A DNA stretch of 64,000 nt from Ectothiorhodospira haloalkaliphila ATCC 51935 (GTDB taxonomy: Bacteria > Pseudomonadota > Gammaproteobacteria > Ectothiorhodospirales > Ectothiorhodospiraceae). The notes under the pieces were generated by a model. That model searched no databases and was not told the DNA's origin. It was given only the letters and a program-made list of their open reading frames with translations. The translations under genes were made by a program, and so were the position numbers. This document shows positions 21,779 through 37,261 of this stretch, piece after piece. The stretch's first letter is position 1. Each line of letters opens with the position of its first letter. The stretch is taken from NCBI RefSeq assembly GCF_000633935.1, contig NZ_KK214998.1, forward strand, positions 74,356-138,355, written 5' to 3'.

Positions 21779-22417
21779 TCACCGCGCGTTGAATACGACT
21801 ACTGTCTTCCCCTTGGCCGTGATCAGCTCCCGCTCTTCCAGGTCCTTGAGTACCCGTCCGGCCATCTCCCGGGAGCAGCCCACGATCTTGGCCAGTTCCT
21901 GGCGGGTGATGCGAATCTGCATGCCCTTGGGATGGGTCATGGCGTCCGGTTGCTGGGCCAGTTCCATCAGGGTGCGGGCGATGCGGCCGGTCACGTCCAG
22001 GAAGGCCAGGTCGATCACCTTGCGGCTGGTTTCGCGCAGGCGCACGGCCATCTGGGTGGCCAGGAGAAACAGGATGGTCGGGTCCTGCATGGCCAGTTCG
22101 ATGAACTTGGGGTAGTGGATCTCCGCCGTCTCGGTGGGGGTGCGGGTCACGATGCCGGCACTGCGCGCCTGGGAGGAGAACACCCCCATCTCCCCGAAGA
22201 ACTGCCCCGGGTTCAGGTAGGCCAGCACCATCTCGTGCCCCAGCTCATCCTCGATCATCACGCTGACCGAACCCTGGATGATATAGTAGAGCGTGTCCGG
22301 GCGATCCCCCGCGTGGATGATGGTGGCACGGGCGGGATATTGGCGACGATGGCAATGGGCAAGCAATTTATCCAGTGCCTCTTCAGGCGCCTGTTGTTGC
22401 TTGAGTAGACTACTCAT
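21779..22417 (-). CDS. crp: cAMP receptor protein (Crp/Vfr-type regulator)
   Basis: Global transcription regulator of the CRP-FNR superfamily. The start is ATG 22417, after GAGGTGG; the upstream frame extension is not conserved. In the 212-residue protein the cyclic-nucleotide pocket residues known from E. coli are conserved: R85-S86 (Arg82/Ser83) and T130-S131 (Thr127/Ser128), and the FLDVTGRIA segment follows the C-helix. The recognition helix reads GCSREMAGR, keeping R183, E184 and R188, the three residues that read the TGTGA half-site. It should therefore bind cAMP and CRP-type sites. It is divergent from the yhfA-type gene, as in E. coli. A CRP-type dyad lies upstream of the exopolysaccharide operon. 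Confidence 0.93.
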   Translation of the reverse strand: MSSLLKQQQAPEEALDKLLAHCHRRQYPARATIIHAGDRPDTLYYIIQGSVSVMIEDELGHEMVLAYLNPGQFFGEMGVFSSQARSAGIVTRTPTETAEIHYPKFIELAMQDPTILFLLATQMAVRLRETSRKVIDLAFLDVTGRIARTLMELAQQPDAMTHPKGMQIRITRQELAKIVGCSREMAGRVLKDLEERELITAKGKTVVVFNAR

Positions 22418-22608: not shown

Positions 22609-23025
22609 GTGAAAACCCGGATCAAGTGGCTGGATAACGCAACCTTTGTGGGCGAGTCGGGCAGCGGACATGCCGTGGTGATGGACGGCCCGCCGGAGCA
22701 CGGTGGGCGCAACCTGGGCCCGCGCCCCATGGAAATGCTGCTGCTGGGCATGGGCGGCTGCACGGCCTTCGATGTGATGCAGATCCTCAGGAAATCCCGG
22801 CAGTCGGTGACCGACTGCGAGCTGGAAGTGTCCGCCGAGCGCGCGGAGACCGACCCCAAGGTGTTCACCCGTATCCATGTGCACTACATCGTCACCGGTC
22901 ACGAGCTGTCGGAGAAGCACGTTGCCAGGGCCGTCAGCCTGTCGGCAGAAAAGTACTGCTCGGCCTCCATCATGCTGGGCAAGGTGGCCGAGATCACCCA
23001 TGATTTCGAGATCCGGTCGCCCTGA
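22609..23025 (+). CDS. yhfA: OsmC-family protein, YhfA type
   Basis: Small OsmC-like fold protein. The sequence closely follows E. coli YhfA: RIKWLDNATFVGES, PRPMEMLLLGMGGCTAFDV with the conserved first Cys, and LSAEKYCSASIML with the second Cys. OsmC relatives are thiol peroxidases, but YhfA itself has no settled role. I use GTG 22609 (138 residues, as in YhfA) after an AAAGGG site rather than the TTG at 22561. It sits head-to-head with crp, an arrangement conserved in gammaproteobacteria. Confidence 0.9.
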   Translation: MKTRIKWLDNATFVGESGSGHAVVMDGPPEHGGRNLGPRPMEMLLLGMGGCTAFDVMQILRKSRQSVTDCELEVSAERAETDPKVFTRIHVHYIVTGHELSEKHVARAVSLSAEKYCSASIMLGKVAEITHDFEIRSP

Positions 23026-23127: not shown

Positions 23128-23156
23128 TTGAAATGTGAACTGGTTCACATTAATCT
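23128..23156 (+). promoter_or_regulatory. Sigma70-like promoter with a perfect CRP-type dyad filling the spacer
   Basis: TTGAAA (23128-23133), exactly 17 bp, then TAATCT (23151-23156). The spacer is the perfect palindrome TGTGAAC-TG-GTTCACA with flanking A/T, matching the CRP consensus TGTGA-N6-TCACA at every defined base (23134-23149). It lies about 150 bp upstream of the first exopolysaccharide gene. A protein bound here would occlude the promoter, so repression is the simplest prediction. Another dyad-binding regulator could be the true ligand. Confidence 0.65.
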
Positions 23157-23304: not shown

Positions 23305-23928
23305 GTGAGCAAGCCAAGTGTCCAGGGGTTCATCCGATACCTTCTCGTCCTCCTCGCGGCGTTGGCGCTGGGCGCCTGTGCCACCAAGCACCCCCCGCTG
23401 GAAGATGTCTCGCTGGACGGCAGTCCCGACTACATCATTGGCCCCGGAGATAACGTGAACATCTTCGTCTGGCGCCAACCCGAGCTCTCCATGTCGGTGC
23501 CGGTGCGCCCCGATGGCAAGATCACCACCCCGTTGATCGAAGACGTACCCGCCGCCAACAAGACCCCCACCGAACTGGCCCGGGACATGGAAGAGGTCCT
23601 GTCCGTGTATGTGCGGGACCCGGTGGTCACGGTCATCGTCACCGGCTTCCGTGGGCCCTATGATCAGCAAATCCGTGTGGTGGGCCAGGCCGCCAATCCT
23701 CAGGCCATTCCCTTTAATGAAAACATGACCGTCCTGGATGTGATGATCGCCGTTGGCGGGCTCACCGAGTTCGCGGCGGGCAATCGGGCCTCCATCGTGC
23801 GCCATGCCAACGGCGAGACCCGTCAGTTCAACGTGCGGCTGAACGATCTGCTCAACCGGGGTGACATCGAGGCCAACGCCCATGTGCTCCCCGGGGACAT
23901 CCTGATCATTCCGGAATCCTGGTTCTAA
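23305..23928 (+). CDS. XrtA-associated polysaccharide export lipoprotein (Wza-like)
   Basis: Outer-membrane/periplasmic exporter of the polysaccharide export (Poly_export/SLBB) family, in the short form found in exosortase A loci. The GTG start follows AAGGAGAA. A signal peptide ends in the lipobox LGAC, with the lipidated Cys at about residue 25. The export domain begins YIIGPGDNVNIFVW, typical of the family, and continues to LPGDILIIPES. At 207 residues it lacks the C-terminal transmembrane helix of true Wza, so the barrel protein encoded three genes later may provide the outer-membrane channel (inference). It is the first gene of the operon behind the CRP-type promoter. Confidence 0.92.
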   Translation: MSKPSVQGFIRYLLVLLAALALGACATKHPPLEDVSLDGSPDYIIGPGDNVNIFVWRQPELSMSVPVRPDGKITTPLIEDVPAANKTPTELARDMEEVLSVYVRDPVVTVIVTGFRGPYDQQIRVVGQAANPQAIPFNENMTVLDVMIAVGGLTEFAAGNRASIVRHANGETRQFNVRLNDLLNRGDIEANAHVLPGDILIIPESWF

Positions 23929-24012: not shown

Positions 24013-25575
24013 ATGCAGGAAATCCTCAATCAGGTCCTGGGTTACGTCAGGTCCACCTGGCGCTACCGGTGGATCGTGCTCATCGTGGCCTGGATCATCA
24101 GCCTTGCCGGGTGGGCTCACGTCACCCAGTTGCCCGACCAATACCGCGCCTCCGCCCAGGTCCACGTGGATACGCAATCCATGTTGAGGCCTCTGTTGCG
24201 GGGCTTGGCTGTGGATACCAATATCTCCCAGCGAGTGGAATTCATGACCCGCACCATGCTCACCGGCCCCAACCTGGAAGAGGTGGCCCGGGAAGTGGAT
24301 CTGCATCTGCAGGCGCGTGATGACAGCGACATGCAGCGGATCGTGAATCGGCTGCGCAGTGGGATCAATATCTCCTCCACTCGCCAGAATGATGTGTACA
24401 CCATCTCCTACACCCACGGGAATCCACAGCATTCCTACGATGTGGTGCAGGCGCTCATCAACCGATTTGTGGAAGGGGCCCTGGGCGACACCCGCGCCGG
24501 GACGGATCATGCTCAACGTTTCCTGCAACAGCAGATCGAAGAGTACGAACAGCGCCTCACGGCTGCTGAGCGTCGGCTGGCAGATTTTCGTAGGGACAAT
24601 GCGGGCTTGCTGCCGGGCGAAGGGGGGACCTATTACTCCCGGCTCCAGCAGGCCAGAAACCAGATGGAAGAGACCCAGCAGCGCCTGCGGGAGGCAGAAA
24701 ATCGCCGTAACGAGATTCGCCGGCAGATTGCGGGCGAGGAACCCACCTTCGGCATCATGGGGGGCACTCGGACCTCGCAGGCCACGGCCGCCATCGACAG
24801 TCGTATCCAGAATCTGCAAAGCCGCCTCGATGAATTGCTGCTGACCTACACCGAACGGCACCCGGATGTACAAAGCATCCGCCGCACCATTGAGGATCTG
24901 GAGGAACAGCGGGAAGAGGAGATCATGCTGGCCCGCCAGAGTGGCCCCACGCCCGAGCAGTTGGATACCAACCCCGTGTATCAGCAGATGCGCATGAGCC
25001 TGTCCAATGTGGAGGTGGAGATCGCCAGTCTCAGCTCCCGGCTGCAGCGTCAGCAGGAGACCGTGGAAAATCTCCAGGGTATGGTGAACGTGATCCCCGA
25101 GGTCGAGGCTGAACTCAAGCGCCTGGACCGGGACTACAACATCAATCAGCAACAGTACAACCAGTTGCTTCAGCGCCGTGAATCGGCCGCCATCAGTCGT
25201 AGGGTGGAAGAGGGTGGCGATCAGGTGCAGTTCCGGGTGATCGAGCCGGCACGCGTGCCGTCCTCGCCGTCTGCCCCGAACCGACCGGCCATGTTCAGTG
25301 CCTCCCTGGTGGGTGGGTTGGCCGTGGGTGCTGGCCTGGCCTTCCTGATCGGTCTGCTGCGCCCCGTGTTCGACAACCGTCGCACGCTCAACTCGGTCAC
25401 CGGCTTCCCGGTGCTGGGTGTGGTCTCCCAGGTGAGCAATGCCCGCATCAAGCGGCGTGAGCGAATCGAACTGGCCGCGTTTGCGTCCTTCGGTGGCCTG
25501 CTGATCCTCACCTACTTCGTGGTGGTGGCAGCGGGCGGAATTCATCTACCCATCGTGGAGCGGCTGCTGGGATGA
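24013..25575 (+). CDS. XrtA-system polysaccharide chain-length determinant (Wzz/GumC type)
   Basis: Polysaccharide co-polymerase that controls chain length with the kinase encoded next. The 520-residue protein has a membrane segment at about 20-38, the Wzz motif region (YRASAQVHVDT), a long periplasmic coiled coil (about 165-390, with repeated Gln/Glu/Arg heptads), a Pro-rich PSSPSAPNRP before a second membrane segment at about 423-445, and an extra hydrophobic segment near 490-510. It lies 84 bp after the lipoprotein and overlaps the kinase gene by 4 bp. Confidence 0.93.
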   Translation: MQEILNQVLGYVRSTWRYRWIVLIVAWIISLAGWAHVTQLPDQYRASAQVHVDTQSMLRPLLRGLAVDTNISQRVEFMTRTMLTGPNLEEVAREVDLHLQARDDSDMQRIVNRLRSGINISSTRQNDVYTISYTHGNPQHSYDVVQALINRFVEGALGDTRAGTDHAQRFLQQQIEEYEQRLTAAERRLADFRRDNAGLLPGEGGTYYSRLQQARNQMEETQQRLREAENRRNEIRRQIAGEEPTFGIMGGTRTSQATAAIDSRIQNLQSRLDELLLTYTERHPDVQSIRRTIEDLEEQREEEIMLARQSGPTPEQLDTNPVYQQMRMSLSNVEVEIASLSSRLQRQQETVENLQGMVNVIPEVEAELKRLDRDYNINQQQYNQLLQRRESAAISRRVEEGGDQVQFRVIEPARVPSSPSAPNRPAMFSASLVGGLAVGAGLAFLIGLLRPVFDNRRTLNSVTGFPVLGVVSQVSNARIKRRERIELAAFASFGGLLILTYFVVVAAGGIHLPIVERLLG

Positions 25576-26645
25576 GCGATAACGATCGAGAACTGAGCCT
25601 GATCGAAAAGGCAGAGCGCCGCCTGCGAGAGCAGGAGAGCGGCAAGGCAAGCGCCCCGTCGGCCTCGTCTGGTTTTGAGCGGACACAGGTCGATGCCCGG
25701 GTGGCCGACCAGCCCGAGTCCGCTCCGAAACCGGATTCGGAAGCAGTACAAGTGGCTGCCCACGACGCGAACGGTGTTGAGGCCGGCCCGGCAGAGCAGG
25801 TCCCCCTGCATCCGCTGCCGGATGTGCCACCGCCCCCGCCGGATCTGAAGCCGGACAGCGATCGTTATGTGGAACTCAATCTGGCCCATTTGCGCGAGCA
25901 GGGCTTTGTCACCGCCGGGTCTGAGCGCACCCAGGTGGCCGAAGAGTTCCGCATGATCAAGCGCCCGCTGCTGGCCAATGCCTTCGGTCGCGGGGCCGAT
26001 CTCGTGGATCAGGGCAATCTGGTGATGGTGACCAGCGCCAAATCCGGCGAGGGCAAGACCTTCACGGCCGTCAACCTGGCCATCAGCATCGCCATGGAAA
26101 TGGACAAGACGGTGCTGCTGGTGGATGCCGACGTGGGGCGCTCCCGGGTGCATGAGATCCTGGGCACCCCCATGGGGCCCGGGCTCATCGACCTGCTGCT
26201 GGACGACAAGCTGGACGTGGGCGATGTGATGATCAAGACCAACATCCCCAAGCTGCGGGTGGTGCCCATGGGCAAGTATCACCCCCATGCCAACGAGTTG
26301 CTGGCCAGTGAGGACATGCTGCGCCTCACCAAGGAGCTGGCGGAACGCTACCCGGACCGTATGGTGATCTTCGACTCCCCACCGCTGTTGCTCACCAGCG
26401 AGGCCTCGGTGCTGGGCGGCCTGCTGGGCCAGGTGGTCTTCGTGGTGGAGTCGGAAAAGACCCTCCATGGGGCGGTGAACGATGCTCTGGCCCTGCTGGA
26501 TCATTCCAAGCCCATCGGGCTGGTGCTTAACAAGATGCGCTCGTCCCTGATCAGTCGCTACGCCGGCTATGGATATGGTTACGGCTATGGCTACAGCTAC
26601 GCGAAACAGGGCAACGATCAACCCGCACAGGGATCCGCCGCATGA
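25572..26645 (+). CDS. XrtA-associated bacterial tyrosine autokinase
   Basis: Cytoplasmic BY-kinase that pairs with the chain-length protein. It has a disordered acidic N-terminal 100 residues, then Walker A SAKSGEGKT (about 155-163, K162), Walker A-prime LLVDADVGRS, and Walker B-like VIFDSPPLLL. The C-terminus is a tyrosine cluster: Tyr at 330, 333, 335, 337, 339, 341 and 343, alternating mainly with Gly, as expected for trans-autophosphorylation. The start overlaps the previous stop (ATGA) and the stop overlaps the next start. All signature elements are intact. Confidence 0.94.
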   Translation: MSDNDRELSLIEKAERRLREQESGKASAPSASSGFERTQVDARVADQPESAPKPDSEAVQVAAHDANGVEAGPAEQVPLHPLPDVPPPPPDLKPDSDRYVELNLAHLREQGFVTAGSERTQVAEEFRMIKRPLLANAFGRGADLVDQGNLVMVTSAKSGEGKTFTAVNLAISIAMEMDKTVLLVDADVGRSRVHEILGTPMGPGLIDLLLDDKLDVGDVMIKTNIPKLRVVPMGKYHPHANELLASEDMLRLTKELAERYPDRMVIFDSPPLLLTSEASVLGGLLGQVVFVVESEKTLHGAVNDALALLDHSKPIGLVLNKMRSSLISRYAGYGYGYGYGYSYAKQGNDQPAQGSAA

Positions 26646-28006
26646 ATCCTCCATGGAGTGGAGCGCTGCTGGGAGGCGCCGCCGTTCTGTTCCTGAGCGC
26701 CGACGCCTCGGCCAACCGGTGGGATTTTACGCCGCGGGTGAGTGTCTCGCAGACCTACACGGATAACGTGAATCTGGCCTCCTCCTCCGATGACAAGGAA
26801 TCGGAATCGGTCAGTCAACTCAATACCGGCTTTTCCCTGAGTCGGGACGGTGGACGCACCGACCTGAGTCTGGGGTACAACCTGCAAAGCCTGGCCTATT
26901 GGGGAGATGACAGCCGTAACACGGTGAACCACACCTTCTCGGGCAACAGCACCACCGAGCTCCTCAGGGAGACCTTTTTCGTGGATGCTTCCGCTAGCTA
27001 CCGGGAGCGATTGGTGGATGGTCGCGATGGTTTTGCGGATGACACTCTCACCGATGGCAACCGGACGGGGGTCGCTAACTACCGGATCAGCCCCTTTTGG
27101 CGCCAGCAGTTCGGGCGGTTTGCCGGTGGTGAGGTGCGCTACACATGGGACAAGACGGATTATCAGGATGCCAGCATTGGGGGTTCCGGGAGTGAGTCCA
27201 ATCGGGTGCAGGCCAGCCTGAACAGTGGTCCCCAGTTCACCACCATTGGTTGGGGCCTGACCTACAGCTGGGACCAGGTCGACTTCGAGGACGGTTCCCA
27301 GACCACCTTCGAATCCATCGAGGGGCTGGTGCGGTTGAATCTCACGCCGCAGTTCAGCGTGTTTGCTGCCGGCGGGGAGGAGCGCAACGACTTCCAGCGC
27401 GATGCCGGGACCGATGACCCCGATGACAGTTTCTGGCGCGCAGGTGCCACCTGGCTGCCCACTCCCCGAACATCGCTTGATGCGTTCTATGGCGAGCGTT
27501 TTTTTGGGGACACCTATGGTTTGACTTTAAATCATCGATTTCGCCATGCGACGTGGTCTGTTGCTTACTCCGAGACCGTAGACACCCAACGAGGTGAGTT
27601 GGACGATGTTTTTGACCCATCCACAGACACATTCATCTCCCGACAACTCAGCGTCAGTGCTTCCGGTCAGCGATCTAGAGTGTCGTGGACGGTAAGCGGC
27701 TCCCGCGTGGAGCGCGAATACCAGACGGACCGAGGTGACGAAGAGGTCAACACCCTCACCACCTCCGCCAGCTACCAACTGGCCCCCCGCACCAGCGCCC
27801 AGGCCAGCCTGCAATGGCAGGGCACCGATTACGACGTGGATAACCGCAAGGACGACCTCTACGCCCTCAGCCTTGGCCTGAGCCGTACCCTGGGCCCACG
27901 CACCTCCGCCTCACTGACCTACCGCCATCAGCAGCGTGACTCGGACCTGCCGGACGGCGATTACGAAGAAAACCGGGTGACCGCCACACTCAGCGCCACG
28001 TTCTAG
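26642..28006 (+). CDS. XrtA/PEP-CTERM-associated outer-membrane beta-barrel protein
   Basis: The 454-residue protein has a signal peptide (to about residue 25, ASANRW) and then many alternating amphipathic strands rich in Tyr, Ser, Thr and Asp, ending in Phe (ATLSATF), typical of outer-membrane barrels. It corresponds to the TIGR03016-type protein always found in XrtA polysaccharide loci. Its role is not established, but it is a reasonable candidate for the outer-membrane exit pore, because the neighbouring export lipoprotein lacks its own membrane helix. It is coupled by overlap to the kinase gene and lies 8 bp before the ATPase gene. Confidence 0.85.
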   Translation: MNPPWSGALLGGAAVLFLSADASANRWDFTPRVSVSQTYTDNVNLASSSDDKESESVSQLNTGFSLSRDGGRTDLSLGYNLQSLAYWGDDSRNTVNHTFSGNSTTELLRETFFVDASASYRERLVDGRDGFADDTLTDGNRTGVANYRISPFWRQQFGRFAGGEVRYTWDKTDYQDASIGGSGSESNRVQASLNSGPQFTTIGWGLTYSWDQVDFEDGSQTTFESIEGLVRLNLTPQFSVFAAGGEERNDFQRDAGTDDPDDSFWRAGATWLPTPRTSLDAFYGERFFGDTYGLTLNHRFRHATWSVAYSETVDTQRGELDDVFDPSTDTFISRQLSVSASGQRSRVSWTVSGSRVEREYQTDRGDEEVNTLTTSASYQLAPRTSAQASLQWQGTDYDVDNRKDDLYALSLGLSRTLGPRTSASLTYRHQQRDSDLPDGDYEENRVTATLSATF

Positions 28007-28014
28007 GGAGCGTC

Positions 28015-29049
28015 ATGTACGAAGCCTACTTCAAGCTGGATCGCAAACCCTTCCAGCTCAGCCCTGACCCGCGCTACTTCTTTGGCAGCCGCATTCATCG
28101 GCGGGCGCTGGCCTATCTGCGTTACGGACTGAGCCAGGGTGAAGGCTTCATTGCCATCACGGGGGATGTGGGCACAGGTAAGACCACCCTGGTGCGCATG
28201 CTCTTCAACGAGCTCAACGATGACAACCTCATCGCCGCCCAGATCGTCACCACTCAACTCCAGGCCGATGACCTGCTGCGCATGGTGGCCATCGCCTTTG
28301 GGTTGGAGGTGGAGAAGGACAGCAAGGCGACCATCCTCTCCCGCCTGGAACGTTTCCTCACCGAGAGGGCCCGGGAAGGCAAGCGCATGCTGCTGGTGGT
28401 GGACGAGGCCCAGAACCTGCCCCCCCATGCCCTGGAAGAGCTGCGCATGCTCTCCAACTTTCAGGTGTCCGGTCGTCCACTTTTGCAAAGCTTCCTGCTC
28501 GGTCAGAACCAGTTCCGCCGCACCCTGCAGATGGCCGAACTGGAACAGTTCCGCCAGCGCTTCCTGGCCGCTTGCCACCTCACGCCCCTGTCGGAAGAGG
28601 AAACCCGGGAATACATCGAGTATCGCCTGGAGAACTCCGGCTGGCAGCGAGACCCGGACTTTACCCCTGAATCCTTCGCCGAGATCCACCGCCAGACCGA
28701 AGGCATCCCCCGACGCATCAACAGCCTGGCCGACCGCCTGCTGCTGTTCGCCTTCCTGGAGGAGCGGCACGAGATCGACGGTGCCGTGGTGCGTGCCGTG
28801 GCCCAGGAACTGGGCGAGGAGATGAACGCCCTCGCGGAAGAAACCGGTTCCGGGCCACTGGAAGGGGGCCTGGATCGCGGCGGTGTGTACGACGCCGAGG
28901 GCCTGCCGGCCCACTACTCCTGGAGCAACCTGGAACTGCGGGTCTCGGCACTGGAAAGCCGCATCCAGACCATGGAAAAGACCTTCTACCGGGAAATCTC
29001 CCAGGTCCGCCGCTTCATCAAGCATTTCCTGAAGGAGAAGCCCCAGTGA
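28015..29049 (+). CDS. XrtA-associated AAA ATPase (ExeA-like)
   Basis: 344 residues: MYEAYFKLDRKPFQLSPDP opening, Walker A GDVGTGKTT (about 49-57), Walker B LLVVDEAQNL, and an AAA lid helix region (RRINSLADRLLL). The C-terminus adds a short helical or coiled tail (ALESRIQTMEKTF). It is related to the secretion ATPase ExeA/GspA and to the general XrtA-system ATPase family. It presumably assembles or gates the export apparatus; the direct substrate is unknown. The stop overlaps the deacetylase start (GTGA). Confidence 0.92.
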   Translation: MYEAYFKLDRKPFQLSPDPRYFFGSRIHRRALAYLRYGLSQGEGFIAITGDVGTGKTTLVRMLFNELNDDNLIAAQIVTTQLQADDLLRMVAIAFGLEVEKDSKATILSRLERFLTERAREGKRMLLVVDEAQNLPPHALEELRMLSNFQVSGRPLLQSFLLGQNQFRRTLQMAELEQFRQRFLAACHLTPLSEEETREYIEYRLENSGWQRDPDFTPESFAEIHRQTEGIPRRINSLADRLLLFAFLEERHEIDGAVVRAVAQELGEEMNALAEETGSGPLEGGLDRGGVYDAEGLPAHYSWSNLELRVSALESRIQTMEKTFYREISQVRRFIKHFLKEKPQ

Positions 29050-29915
29050 CCCAGGTTCCCAACGCCCCCCAGTGCATCCGCAATGCCATGACCGTGGATG
29101 TGGAAGACTACTTCCAGGTCTCCGCCTTTGAGGAACACATCTCCCGGGGGAGTTGGGATGATCTGCCCTGCCGGGTGGAACAGAACGTGGATCGCATCCT
29201 GGAGATCTTCTCGGACCAGGGCGTGAAGGCCACCTTTTTCTATCTGGGGTGGGTGGCTCGCCGCTATCCGGAACTGGTGCGGCGCACCCGGGACGAGGGC
29301 CACGAGATCGCCAGCCACGGCTGGTCCCATATTCGTGCCACGGAACAGACCCAGGAGGCCTTCCGTCAGGATGTCTCCCGCACCAAGGCGCTGCTGGAGG
29401 ACGTGACCGGCGACCCGGTGCAGGGCTATCGGGCCGCCAGTTACTCCATTGGCCGCAACAACCTCTGGGCCCTGGATGTCCTTCAGGAAACGGGGTATCG
29501 CTACAGTTCCAGCATCTACCCCATCCGCCACGACCTCTACGGCATGCCCGAGGCCCCCCGCTTCGCCTTTTACCCCGTGGAGGGCGACCTGCTGGAGGTG
29601 CCGGTGACCACCCTGGAACTGGCGGGCCAGAAGTTCCCCTGCGGCGGTGGCGGCTATTTCCGCCTATTCCCCTATCACCTGTCCCGCTGGGCCATACAGC
29701 GTATCAATCAGGCCGAGGGGCAGCCGGCGGTGTTCTATTTCCACCCCTGGGAGATCGACCCGGACCAGCCCCGCCAGCAGAACATCGGCCTCAAGACCCG
29801 GGTTCGCCATTACCTCAACCTGAAGCGCACGGAATCGCGCCTCAAGCTACTGCTCAAGGACTTTCACTGGGACCGCATGGACCGCGTGTTCCTGGAGCCT
29901 GCCCCCAGCCCATGA
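29046..29915 (+). CDS. XrtA-system polysaccharide deacetylase (DUF3473 type)
   Basis: NodB-fold carbohydrate deacetylase expected to remove N- or O-acetyl groups from the polymer or its intermediates. Metal and catalytic motifs are visible: D18 and D21 in TVDVEDYF, H91 and H95 in SHGWSH, and YRAASYSIG. The C-terminal DUF3473 part ends with a YFHPWEID motif. No signal peptide is present, so action on cytoplasmic lipid-linked intermediates is likely (inference). The start is GTG overlapping the ATPase stop; the stop overlaps the FemAB gene by 4 bp. Confidence 0.93.
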   Translation: MTQVPNAPQCIRNAMTVDVEDYFQVSAFEEHISRGSWDDLPCRVEQNVDRILEIFSDQGVKATFFYLGWVARRYPELVRRTRDEGHEIASHGWSHIRATEQTQEAFRQDVSRTKALLEDVTGDPVQGYRAASYSIGRNNLWALDVLQETGYRYSSSIYPIRHDLYGMPEAPRFAFYPVEGDLLEVPVTTLELAGQKFPCGGGGYFRLFPYHLSRWAIQRINQAEGQPAVFYFHPWEIDPDQPRQQNIGLKTRVRHYLNLKRTESRLKLLLKDFHWDRMDRVFLEPAPSP

Positions 29916-32324: not shown

Positions 32325-33941
32325 ATGAACACCAGCCCATCCAGCACACAAGCTCAACCCGATGCCCCGGCCCCCATCAAGGCCAGGAAGAGTGGCCTCC
32401 CATGGCCCCTGGCCCTCGGCCTGCTCGCCGCCGCCTTCCTGGCCATGCTGGCCCTCTATTGGCCCAGCGTGCAAAGCCTGGTGGGCATCTGGGCCAATTC
32501 CGACACCTATGCCCACGGCATGGTCATCCTCCCCATCAGCCTCTTCCTGGCCTGGACCCAGCGCCACCGACTGGCACAGGTCACGCCCAGCCCCAGCCTC
32601 TTCGGCGCCCTGGTCATCCTGGCCCTCGGCGTTGGCTGGTTCCTGGCCCGCGCCGCCGATGTCACCGTGGTACAGACCTTCGTGGTGGTGGCCATGGTCC
32701 CGGCGCTGGTGCTGGCCATCCTGGGCTGGCAGGTTTCCCGGGTGCTCATTTTCCCGCTGGCCTATCTGTTCTTTGCCTGGCCCGTGGGCAACTTTCTGGT
32801 GCCCATCCTGCAGGACTACACAGCCTGGTTCACCGTGTGGATGCTACGGGCCAGTGGCATCCCCACCTTCAGCGAAGGCTATTACATCAGCATCCCCGCC
32901 GGAGATTTCGTGGTGGCCGAGGTATGCAGCGGCATCCGCTACCTGATCGCCTCCGTGGCCCTGGGGCTGGTGTATGCCTATCTGGTCTATCGCAGCATCT
33001 GGCGCCGTCTGGCCTTTGTGGCCCTGTCCATCCTCGTACCCATCGTTGCCAATGGCCTGCGCGCCTACGGCATCATCATGATCGCCCACTGGACCAATAT
33101 GGAGCACGCCGTGGGGGTGGATCACCTGATCTATGGCTGGCTGTTCTTCGGGTTCGTGATGTTCCTGTTGTTCTGGATCGGCACCTTCTTCAGGGATGAC
33201 CACGAACCGCTCAGTGCCAAGGTCAAAGGGGAAGATGCCGCACCGGGTGCGGGCACAGGCCTTCCGCTGACCCGCAGCCTCGCCTCCCATGCCACCCCCA
33301 TCGTGGCCGTTGTGGTGGCCCTTGCCCTGGCCCCCAGCGGCGAGACCTGGCTTGACCAGCGCATGGCCGCCCTGGCCGGCGACCTGCGGCCCGAGGCCCC
33401 GTTGATGGCCGGTTGGGATGGTCCGGAAACCCTGGACGAGGCCCCCTGGAACCCTCGTTGGGCCGAGCCGGACACTCGCCTCCAGGTGGCCTACGCCAGC
33501 CCGCGCGGACACATGGAATGGCATGTGTATCATTACCGGCATGATCAGCCCGGTACTGACCTGATCCGCTATGACAACCGCATCTTTGATGGCGACCGCT
33601 GGCGGCGCATCAGCCAGGGCAGCCAAAACGTGACCCTGCCTGATGGCAGTCAGCGCCCGGTGCGCGAGACGCTGCTGCGGGGCAGGGAAGGGAATGACCG
33701 GGTGGTATGGCACTGGTATCAGGTGGCCGGACAGACCACCGTCCGTCCCATCGAGGTGAAGCTTCTGGAGGCCAGCGCCCGCCTCACCGGTCATCGGGAA
33801 GGCTCCCTGCTGGTAGTGGTGAGCGCTGAATACGAGATCTCAGCCGACGAGGCCCGGGACACCCTGGCGGGATTCCTGGAACAGTCGCCCCGCCGGGTGG
33901 CCGTGGTTGAATCGACGCCCCAGGTGGCCGCGGATGAGTGA
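32325..33941 (+). CDS. xrtA: Exosortase A fused to an EpsI domain
   Basis: Multi-pass membrane transpeptidase-like enzyme that cleaves and sorts PEP-CTERM proteins. The N-terminal part (to about residue 300) has eight or so membrane segments and the invariant catalytic set C201 (EVCSGIRYL), R246 (NGLRAYG) and H267 (DHLIYGW). The C-terminal about 220 residues are an EpsI-type periplasmic domain (WHVYHYRHDQPGTDLI, VWHWYQVAGQ). In some species these are separate genes. ATG 32325 follows AGGAAAATAG. It overlaps the next glycosyltransferase by 8 bp. All active-site residues are intact, so it should be functional. Confidence 0.95.
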   Translation: MNTSPSSTQAQPDAPAPIKARKSGLPWPLALGLLAAAFLAMLALYWPSVQSLVGIWANSDTYAHGMVILPISLFLAWTQRHRLAQVTPSPSLFGALVILALGVGWFLARAADVTVVQTFVVVAMVPALVLAILGWQVSRVLIFPLAYLFFAWPVGNFLVPILQDYTAWFTVWMLRASGIPTFSEGYYISIPAGDFVVAEVCSGIRYLIASVALGLVYAYLVYRSIWRRLAFVALSILVPIVANGLRAYGIIMIAHWTNMEHAVGVDHLIYGWLFFGFVMFLLFWIGTFFRDDHEPLSAKVKGEDAAPGAGTGLPLTRSLASHATPIVAVVVALALAPSGETWLDQRMAALAGDLRPEAPLMAGWDGPETLDEAPWNPRWAEPDTRLQVAYASPRGHMEWHVYHYRHDQPGTDLIRYDNRIFDGDRWRRISQGSQNVTLPDGSQRPVRETLLRGREGNDRVVWHWYQVAGQTTVRPIEVKLLEASARLTGHREGSLLVVVSAEYEISADEARDTLAGFLEQSPRRVAVVESTPQVAADE

Positions 33942-35362: not shown

Positions 35363-37261
35363 ATGTGCGGCATCACAGGGATCTTCGACACCCGCGAACA
35401 GCGCCCCATCGACCGGGCGCTGCTGGAACGCATGAACAAGACCCAGTTCCATCGGGGGCCGGACGAGGGCGGCATCCACGTGGAACCGGGGCTGGGTTTC
35501 GCCCACCGGCGCCTGTCCATCATCGACCTGTCCAGCGGCCAGCAACCCCTGTTCAACGAGAACGGGTCCGTGGTCGTCACCTACAACGGCGAGATCTACA
35601 ATTTCCCGGAGCTCACCGAAGAACTGAAGGCCGCCGGCCACCAGTTCCGGACCCACTGCGACACCGAGGTGATCGTCCACGCCTGGGAGCAATGGGGCGA
35701 GGCCTGCGTGAAACGCTTCCGGGGCATGTTTGCCTTTGCCGTGTGGGACCGGAACGTGGACACGCTGTTCATCGCGCGGGACCGTCTGGGCATCAAGCCT
35801 GTCTACTACGCCATCAGGCCCGACGGCATACTCACCTTCGCCTCCGAGCTCAAGGCTCTGATGGCCGATCCGGATCTGCCCCGTGCCCTGGATCCCCAGG
35901 CCGTGGACGACTACTTTGCCTATGGCTACGTCCCCGAGCCGCGCACCATCTACGACGCCGTTCATAAACTCCCCCCAGGGCACACCCTGTCTATCCACCG
36001 CGGCCTGCGGGTGCCCGAACCGCGCATCTACTGGGACGTGCCGTTCCGGGATACGGGCCCCATGAGCGAGGCAGAGGCCATGGAAGGGCTGGAGGAACGC
36101 CTGCGCGAGGCCGTGCGTGTGCGGCTGGTGGCCGAGGTACCGCTTGGGGCCTTCCTATCCGGCGGTGTAGACTCCAGCGCCGTGGTGGCCATGATGGCCG
36201 GTCTGTCATCCGATCCGGTCAAGACCTGCTCCATCGCCTTCAGCGACCCGGCCTATGATGAATCCGCCCACGCTGCCCAGGTGGCGCAGCGTTTCGGCAC
36301 CAGTCACCAGGTGCGTCAGGTGGATCCAGACGATTTTGGACTACTGGATCGCCTGGCCGAGTTGTACGACGAACCCTATGCCGACAGCTCAGCCTTGCCC
36401 ACCTACCGTGTGTGCGAGTTGGCCCGGGAGCAGGTAACCGTGGCCCTGTCCGGCGACGGCGGCGATGAAACCCTGGCCGGCTACCGGCGCTACAGGTTCC
36501 ACATGCAGGAGGAACGTCTGCGCTCCATGATGCCCCTGGGTCTGCGCCGCCCCCTGTTTGGCGCCATGGCGCACCTCTACCCCAAGGCCGATTGGGCACC
36601 CCGCATGTTCCGGGCCAAGGCCACCTTCCAGGCCCTGGCCCGGGATGCTGTGCAGGGTTATTTCAACAATAACGCGATCATCCGCGACGAGCAGCGGCAG
36701 CGCCTGTACAGCGAATCCTTCCGCCGCAGCCTGCAGGGTTATCATCCCGTGGAGGTCCTGCGCTACCACGCCCAGCGCTCCCCTACGGATCACCCCCTAT
36801 CCTTGGTGCAGTACCTGGACATGAAAACCTACCTCCCCGGCGACATCCTCACCAAGGTGGACCGCGCCAGCATGGCCCACGCCCTGGAAGTGCGCGTGCC
36901 CATCCTGGATCACCCGTTGGTGGAATGGATCTCCGGCCTCTCACCGGACATGAAGCTCAAGGGCGGGGAGGGCAAGTACATCTTCAAGAAGGCCATGGAG
37001 CCGCACCTGCCCCAAGACATCCTCTACCGCCGCAAACAGGGCTTCGCCGTCCCCCTGGCCCAGTGGTTCCGTGGGCCTCTAAAACAACGCCTTCAGGAAA
37101 CCATCCTGGGCGACCGCCTCAGAGACTCCGGCATCTTCGACATGAACACCCTCCAGCACCTGGTGGATGCCCACGTGAGCGGCCAGCGGGACTACAGCGC
37201 CCCGCTGTGGAGTCTGTTCATGTTTGAGGCGTTTTTGCGGAGGAACGAGGGTGTGGGGTAA
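35363..37261 (+). CDS. Exosortase A-associated amidotransferase 1 (asparagine synthase family)
   Basis: Glutamine-dependent amidotransferase thought to amidate a carboxyl group of the polysaccharide or a precursor. It has the catalytic N-terminal Cys2 (MCGITGIFDT), a full class II glutaminase domain (FHRGPDEGG, YNGEIYNF), and a synthetase PP-loop SGGVDSS at 266-272, with YRRKQGFAVPLAQWF at the C-terminus. At 632 residues it matches the XrtA-linked family. It is separated from the upstream glycosyltransferase by 157 bp filled with repeats and is the last gene of the first block. Confidence 0.93.
   Translation: MCGITGIFDTREQRPIDRALLERMNKTQFHRGPDEGGIHVEPGLGFAHRRLSIIDLSSGQQPLFNENGSVVVTYNGEIYNFPELTEELKAAGHQFRTHCDTEVIVHAWEQWGEACVKRFRGMFAFAVWDRNVDTLFIARDRLGIKPVYYAIRPDGILTFASELKALMADPDLPRALDPQAVDDYFAYGYVPEPRTIYDAVHKLPPGHTLSIHRGLRVPEPRIYWDVPFRDTGPMSEAEAMEGLEERLREAVRVRLVAEVPLGAFLSGGVDSSAVVAMMAGLSSDPVKTCSIAFSDPAYDESAHAAQVAQRFGTSHQVRQVDPDDFGLLDRLAELYDEPYADSSALPTYRVCELAREQVTVALSGDGGDETLAGYRRYRFHMQEERLRSMMPLGLRRPLFGAMAHLYPKADWAPRMFRAKATFQALARDAVQGYFNNNAIIRDEQRQRLYSESFRRSLQGYHPVEVLRYHAQRSPTDHPLSLVQYLDMKTYLPGDILTKVDRASMAHALEVRVPILDHPLVEWISGLSPDMKLKGGEGKYIFKKAMEPHLPQDILYRRKQGFAVPLAQWFRGPLKQRLQETILGDRLRDSGIFDMNTLQHLVDAHVSGQRDYSAPLWSLFMFEAFLRRNEGVG

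Follow-up and report, generated by a model that had tools for sequence, protein, structure and literature searches.

What controls the polysaccharide operon of an XrtA/PEP-CTERM system is the question that this locus raises; such systems are widespread, and the published control that we found concerns PEP-CTERM protein genes (PrsR, sigma-54) and not the polysaccharide operon. The window, meaning the whole 64-kb stretch of DNA analyzed here, contains an operon starting at 23305 that curated family models identify as an XrtA/PEP-CTERM polysaccharide operon. Its first gene encodes the exopolysaccharide export protein (23305-23928, + strand; TIGR03027, 248 bits, cut-off 180), and it is followed on the same strand by genes for the XrtA system polysaccharide chain length determinant (24013-25575, TIGR03007), the XrtA-associated tyrosine autokinase (25572-26645, TIGR03018), a PEP-CTERM system-associated outer membrane protein (26642-28006, TIGR03016), an XrtA system-associated ATPase (28015-29049, TIGR03015), the XrtA system polysaccharide deacetylase (29046-29915, TIGR03006), exosortase A (XrtA) with an EpsI-like C-terminal domain (32325-33941, TIGR03109 and TIGR02914), and an XrtA/PEP-CTERM system amidotransferase (35363-37261, TIGR03108). 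Upstream, a 279-bp gap separates the operon from an OsmC family gene of the PRK10738 type (22609-23025, + strand; NF008009, 171 bits, cut-off 138), whose start was inferred from the family match, and beyond that gene lies crp (21779-22417, - strand), which encodes a Vfr/CRP-type regulator of 212 amino acids.

We found that the gap contains a -35 hexamer, TTGAAA (23128-23133, + strand; five of six positions against TTGACA), and a -10 hexamer, TAATCT (23151-23156, + strand), with a 17-bp spacer, just as an earlier note on this DNA had described for 23128-23156. That note also took all 17 bp for a perfect palindrome; the dyad is indeed perfect, but its length was overstated, since it covers 16 of the 17 spacer bases. 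This predicted Crp operator, TGTGAACTGGTTCACA (23134-23149, no strand), is a 16-bp perfect TGTGA-N6-TCACA dyad whose arms, TGTGAAC/GTTCACA, form a perfect 7+7 repeat flanking a central TG, and a single T at 23150 stands between it and the -10 hexamer. It is the sole perfect match in the window, where eight other matches have two mismatches and show no excess over shuffles, while the expectation from base composition is 0.027 perfect dyads per 64 kb and about 1e-4 in the OsmC-XrtA gap. TTGAAA-17-TAATCT is the highest-scoring sigma-70 arrangement within 150 bp and is an arrangement kept in relatives, which places the dyad inside the spacer of the best predicted sigma-70-like promoter in the gap. 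A strict promoter scan made no call for this promoter, because TAATCT matches TATAAT at only three of six positions, the key T-12, A-11, and T-7. Since the CRP consensus prefers AAA in front of the half-sites and TT(A) behind them, a preference that helps to create TTGAAA and TTA, parts of both hexamers coincide with AT flanks preferred by CRP, and this counts against reading them as a straddling promoter. A leader RNA element was considered and rejected, as an Rfam search of the leader gave no match and its folding is ordinary (z 0.18).

When the whole 3.45-Mb genome was scanned, four perfect dyads were found, compared to none for the reversed control pattern, and two of the four precede the XrtA operon and a second operon, epsB2-prsK-prsR (dyad at C4:1800055; epsB2, TIGR03013, 537 bits; prsK, TIGR02916, 808 bits; prsR, TIGR02915, 739 bits). 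The earlier note had proposed Crp control instead of PrsK/PrsR control, and this part has to be given up, since the genome encodes both, about 1.7 Mb from the XrtA operon on the same contig, where they share an operon with epsB2 behind a perfect Crp dyad of its own; by their upstream sequence, prsK and prsR are themselves probable Crp targets. The premise that PrsK/PrsR control the exopolysaccharide (EPS) operon in other XrtA systems is also unsupported, since the published PrsR/sigma-54 boxes lie upstream of PEP-CTERM protein genes and not of EPS operons (Haft et al. 2006, PMC1569441), so that the EPS operon was never an established PrsR target. Work on Aquincola (PMC9850573) agrees, as pepA depends on RpoN there, and it cites a 2017 study that according to its title found EPS biosynthesis not to need RpoN. 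Sigma-54 control of the XrtA or epsB2 operon was rejected in our genome because neither carries a TGGCACR-N4-TTGCW box with at most one mismatch (-24 GG/-12 GC).

Conservation in close relatives had been set beforehand as the test that could refute a role for the dyad, and we compared ten Ectothiorhodospira genomes, our own included. The operon has named relatives in Ectothiorhodospira lacustris, shaposhnikovii, and mobilis. The XrtA export gene is present in eight of the ten, and the same eight carry EpsB2 (TIGR03013) and PrsR (TIGR02915) over cut-off, with the PrsK/PrsR genes beside epsB2 in every one. The dyad passed this test, as all eight keep it in the gap that runs from the OsmC gene to the export gene, with no mismatch in three, one in three, and two in two; the last are E. 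mobilis, where the site has decayed and the straddling promoter is absent. Ahead of epsB2, the dyad is perfect in 8/8. While the OsmC-XrtA gap has diverged in sequence around it, the 29-bp promoter/dyad block holds 12 of the 28 invariant intergenic columns (hypergeometric P about 1e-5, uncorrected for relatedness); since the genomes are related, the genus counts are not independent. Beyond the genus, a survey of 80 XrtA loci across proteobacteria (79 with enough upstream sequence) revealed no dyad with zero or one mismatch outside Ectothiorhodospira, whose four records in the survey have dyads with one or two mismatches, and the occasional two-mismatch matches elsewhere look like chance. The dyad as a general XrtA feature was therefore rejected, as the surveyed XrtA operons outside the family lack it, and so was the crp-OsmC-XrtA adjacency, which among the loci examined around XrtA export genes occurs only in Ectothiorhodospira. 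Judged from sequence, the predicted Crp-operator target set is restricted, among those surveyed, to Ectothiorhodospira and part of its sister genus.

The encoded Crp has the features expected of a reader of this dyad. It scores 325 bits against the CRP equivalog model NF008732 (cut-off 266), and its nearest solved relatives are Vfr (E 1e-81), CRP (1e-73), and Clp (PDB 3iwz, 5e-59). The residues that the earlier note had named, R183, E184, and R188, are correctly numbered from the ATG and make up an R-E-x3-R recognition helix with the TGTGA contacts. Four CRP/FNR paralogues in the genome have E-x-x-S-R helices of the FNR/Dnr kind, and they were rejected as dyad readers since these recognition helices do not fit; of the CRP/FNR members that we found in this genome, Crp alone has an R-E-x3-R helix. 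We consider the dyad very likely to be a Crp operator. The cAMP-contact residues G75-E76, R85-S86, R126, and T130-S131 are also present, which we take to correspond to E. coli G71, E72, R82, S83, R123, T127, and S128. A class III adenylate cyclase (PF00211) occurs in 9/10 genus genomes, while a class I cyclase (PF01295) was found in none of the ten. The retained contact residues, together with the class III cyclase, favor cAMP as the ligand, and it is the likely one on the evidence of these genes. The class III cyclase of our own genome, a membrane protein that combines a HAMP domain with a sensor region resembling SMP_2, is encoded 10 kb before the window (L083:517-2121) and is a candidate source of the signal. 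Compared to Vfr, Crp lacks four residues in the loop that precedes R85-S86 (GVFSSQARSA), which adjoins the cAMP pocket, and this shortening could change nucleotide affinity or specificity.

Crp, the class III cyclase, and perfect dyads occur together in nine of the ten genus genomes. The exception, G006 (2.0 Mb), has no Crp over cut-off, no class III cyclase, no perfect dyads, and no XrtA operon, and it retains four CRP/FNR paralogues. Another genome, G004, has Crp, the cyclase, and one dyad and lacks the XrtA operon. The joint loss in the single lineage G006 is no more than suggestive of a link between Crp, cyclase, dyad, and XrtA.

If Crp binds the dyad, its effect should follow from where the site lies relative to the promoter. 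Classical CRP activation needs a site at -41.5, -61.5, or further upstream. A promoter of the form TTGnnn-17/18-TAnnnT straddles the dyad at both operons in six of the eight genomes, examples being TTGAAA-17-TAATCT, TTGATT-18-TATGCT, TTGCAA-18-TAACCT, TTGAAA-18-TAGTAT, and TTGAAA-17-TAGCAT, and TTG followed by A/W is kept at -35 in 6/8 congeners. The -10 elements are mediocre; the pairs nonetheless rank first or second among sigma-70 pairs within 150 bp, with a random-flank P of at most 0.0024 each. The genus has 28 perfect dyads, of which 11 precede the XrtA operon or epsB2, and the straddling arrangement is found at nine of these 11 compared to 0/17 elsewhere (Fisher P 8e-6, uncorrected for relatedness), with none in reverse orientation among the genus perfect dyads. 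In E. mobilis and the sister genus, dyads lie at or just past the predicted start. The dyad overlaps the final base of TACACT/TAGACT at E. mobilis epsB2, with its center at about +0.5, and at the XrtA operon of the sister-genus genome G017, TTGACG-16-TAGAAT is followed by a one-mismatch dyad centered at +0.5. At epsB2 of the sister-genus genomes G012 and G015, a perfect dyad is centered at about +9.5 of TTGCAA-16-TATGCT, though an alternative promoter with a slightly better score lies further upstream and would put it at +36.5. A dyad inside the spacer, or overlapping or closely following the predicted start, predicts repression and not class I or II activation. The earlier reading of a Crp site in a probable promoter, positioned for repression, is thus backed by the comparative evidence, and Crp likely represses the XrtA operon.

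Activation is the alternative that survives best, although we consider it unlikely. Here, Crp would activate both operons in class II or class I fashion from a downstream start, and the straddling hexamers would be a by-product of AT-rich CRP flanks. Crp does keep counterparts of AR2 (H19, R21, K101, as numbered in E. coli) and the greater part of AR1, as judged by aligning it to E. coli CRP and to Vfr. In addition, at epsB2 of G003 and G005 a TATAAG follows the dyad by about 22 bp, which would fit class II activation from an additional start, and epsB2 of G000, G007, and G009 has AAGAAT one base off the class II distance. However, the XrtA operon of our own genome has no good -10 at that distance (20-23 bp past the dyad), and over the genomes the -10 score is highest 0-2 bp past the dyad. 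The TTG lies outside the CRP consensus, yet it is retained in 6/8 at both operons, and the dyads of E. mobilis epsB2 and the sister genus overlap or follow +1.

The best explanation, and one that we regard as probable from the sequence comparisons, is that Crp-cAMP represses both promoters through their dyads and that repression is relieved when cAMP falls. The class III cyclase would make cAMP, which would load Crp; Crp-cAMP would then occupy about -21.5 and exclude sigma-70 RNA polymerase from both promoters. This would switch off the synthesis and export of polysaccharide along with the initiating sugar transferase EpsB2 and the regulator PrsK/PrsR, all at once, and a drop in cAMP would release Crp and allow both promoters to fire. 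Since the dyads are placed to block RNA polymerase, the slime coat is probably off at high cAMP.

It is also conceivable, but improbable, that the Crp site has little effect on the XrtA operon because the main promoter lies elsewhere and Crp only trims its output. Read-through from the OsmC gene is possible, as no terminator-like site was found in the 279-bp gap, and our own genome has a second, weak promoter-like pair, TTGGGA-16-AATATT, about 90 bp downstream; against this, the conserved part of the gap is the promoter/dyad block itself, and the same wiring recurs at the unlinked epsB2-prsK-prsR operon. Weakest of all, and very improbable, is the reading that the palindrome arose by chance and has no regulator, or that an FNR/Dnr paralogue reads it: four ideal sites in our genome are few for a global regulator and one-mismatch near-sites number 40 compared to 20 for the control, but the dyad is kept in 8/8 at two operons, the paralogues carry FNR/Dnr-type helices, and G006 has four paralogues yet neither Crp nor perfect dyads.

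Repression by Crp as proposed here would be classical in mechanism. CRP/Vfr operators that overlap the core promoter are known for repression, and they share with our case the TGTGA-N6-TCACA dyad, the R-E-x3-R helix with a cAMP pocket, and a site over -35/-10/+1. The targets differ, since here they are XrtA/PEP-CTERM polysaccharide operons in a purple sulfur phototroph, and so does the source of cAMP, which would be a HAMP/class III cyclase, with no class I cyclase found. The CRP homologue Clp of Xanthomonas, which responds to c-di-GMP and regulates EPS genes, likewise puts an EPS operon under CRP-family control; however, Clp is a more distant match to our Crp, which keeps the cAMP residues. 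In Vibrio cholerae, CRP lowers biofilm formation (PMC11980369), but the polysaccharide system is a different one, whereas the predicted operators here lie directly in the promoters for biosynthesis and, in addition, upstream of the PrsK/PrsR genes. The PrsK/PrsR/sigma-54 system (PMC1569441; PMC9850573) has the same two-component genes beside epsB2, but it regulates PEP-CTERM protein genes, while here prsK-prsR would probably be under Crp itself. We found no papers linking exosortase or PEP-CTERM with CRP control, which is weak evidence as the search covered mostly papers outside subscription, and the Crp target regulon appears undescribed in the literature searched. The comparative evidence names a candidate regulator, operator, and signal for the polysaccharide operon and ties them to the same regulator on prsK-prsR. 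More tentatively, and with a little less than even confidence, we propose that in Ectothiorhodospira, as well as in part of its sister genus, the entire XrtA/PEP-CTERM surface system may have cAMP-Crp as its top switch, through direct repression of the polysaccharide and epsB2-prsK-prsR operons and, via PrsR, of sigma-54-dependent PEP-CTERM cargo genes as well. If so, a single nucleotide signal would gate the polysaccharide along with the proteins that are sorted to it.

Crp-type dyads were also observed at other genes. G005 (L039:1501-1516) and G002 (L044:1501-1516) have perfect dyads inside a hydrolase gene, at its 3' end and before a GNAT-like gene; the hydrolase resembles the one that ends the XrtA cluster of the window, where the copy has no such dyad. 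The fourth perfect dyad of our genome, at C4:536060 (L037:1501-1516), is followed after about 25 bp by the start of an HDOD/GAF-like gene (domains judged by eye), which sits behind a hybrid-cluster-protein-like gene, and G007 has an identical dyad. About 20 kb beyond the window end, TGAGATCAGTCTCACA and TGTGATTGGTGTCTCA are one-mismatch Crp dyads 85 bp apart (C4:157995-158095; L078:196-296) upstream of a gene for a PEP-CTERM-like protein (P0001), and some 4 kb before them another perfect dyad, at C4:154264 (L036), precedes a gene cluster with an HprK-related kinase A.
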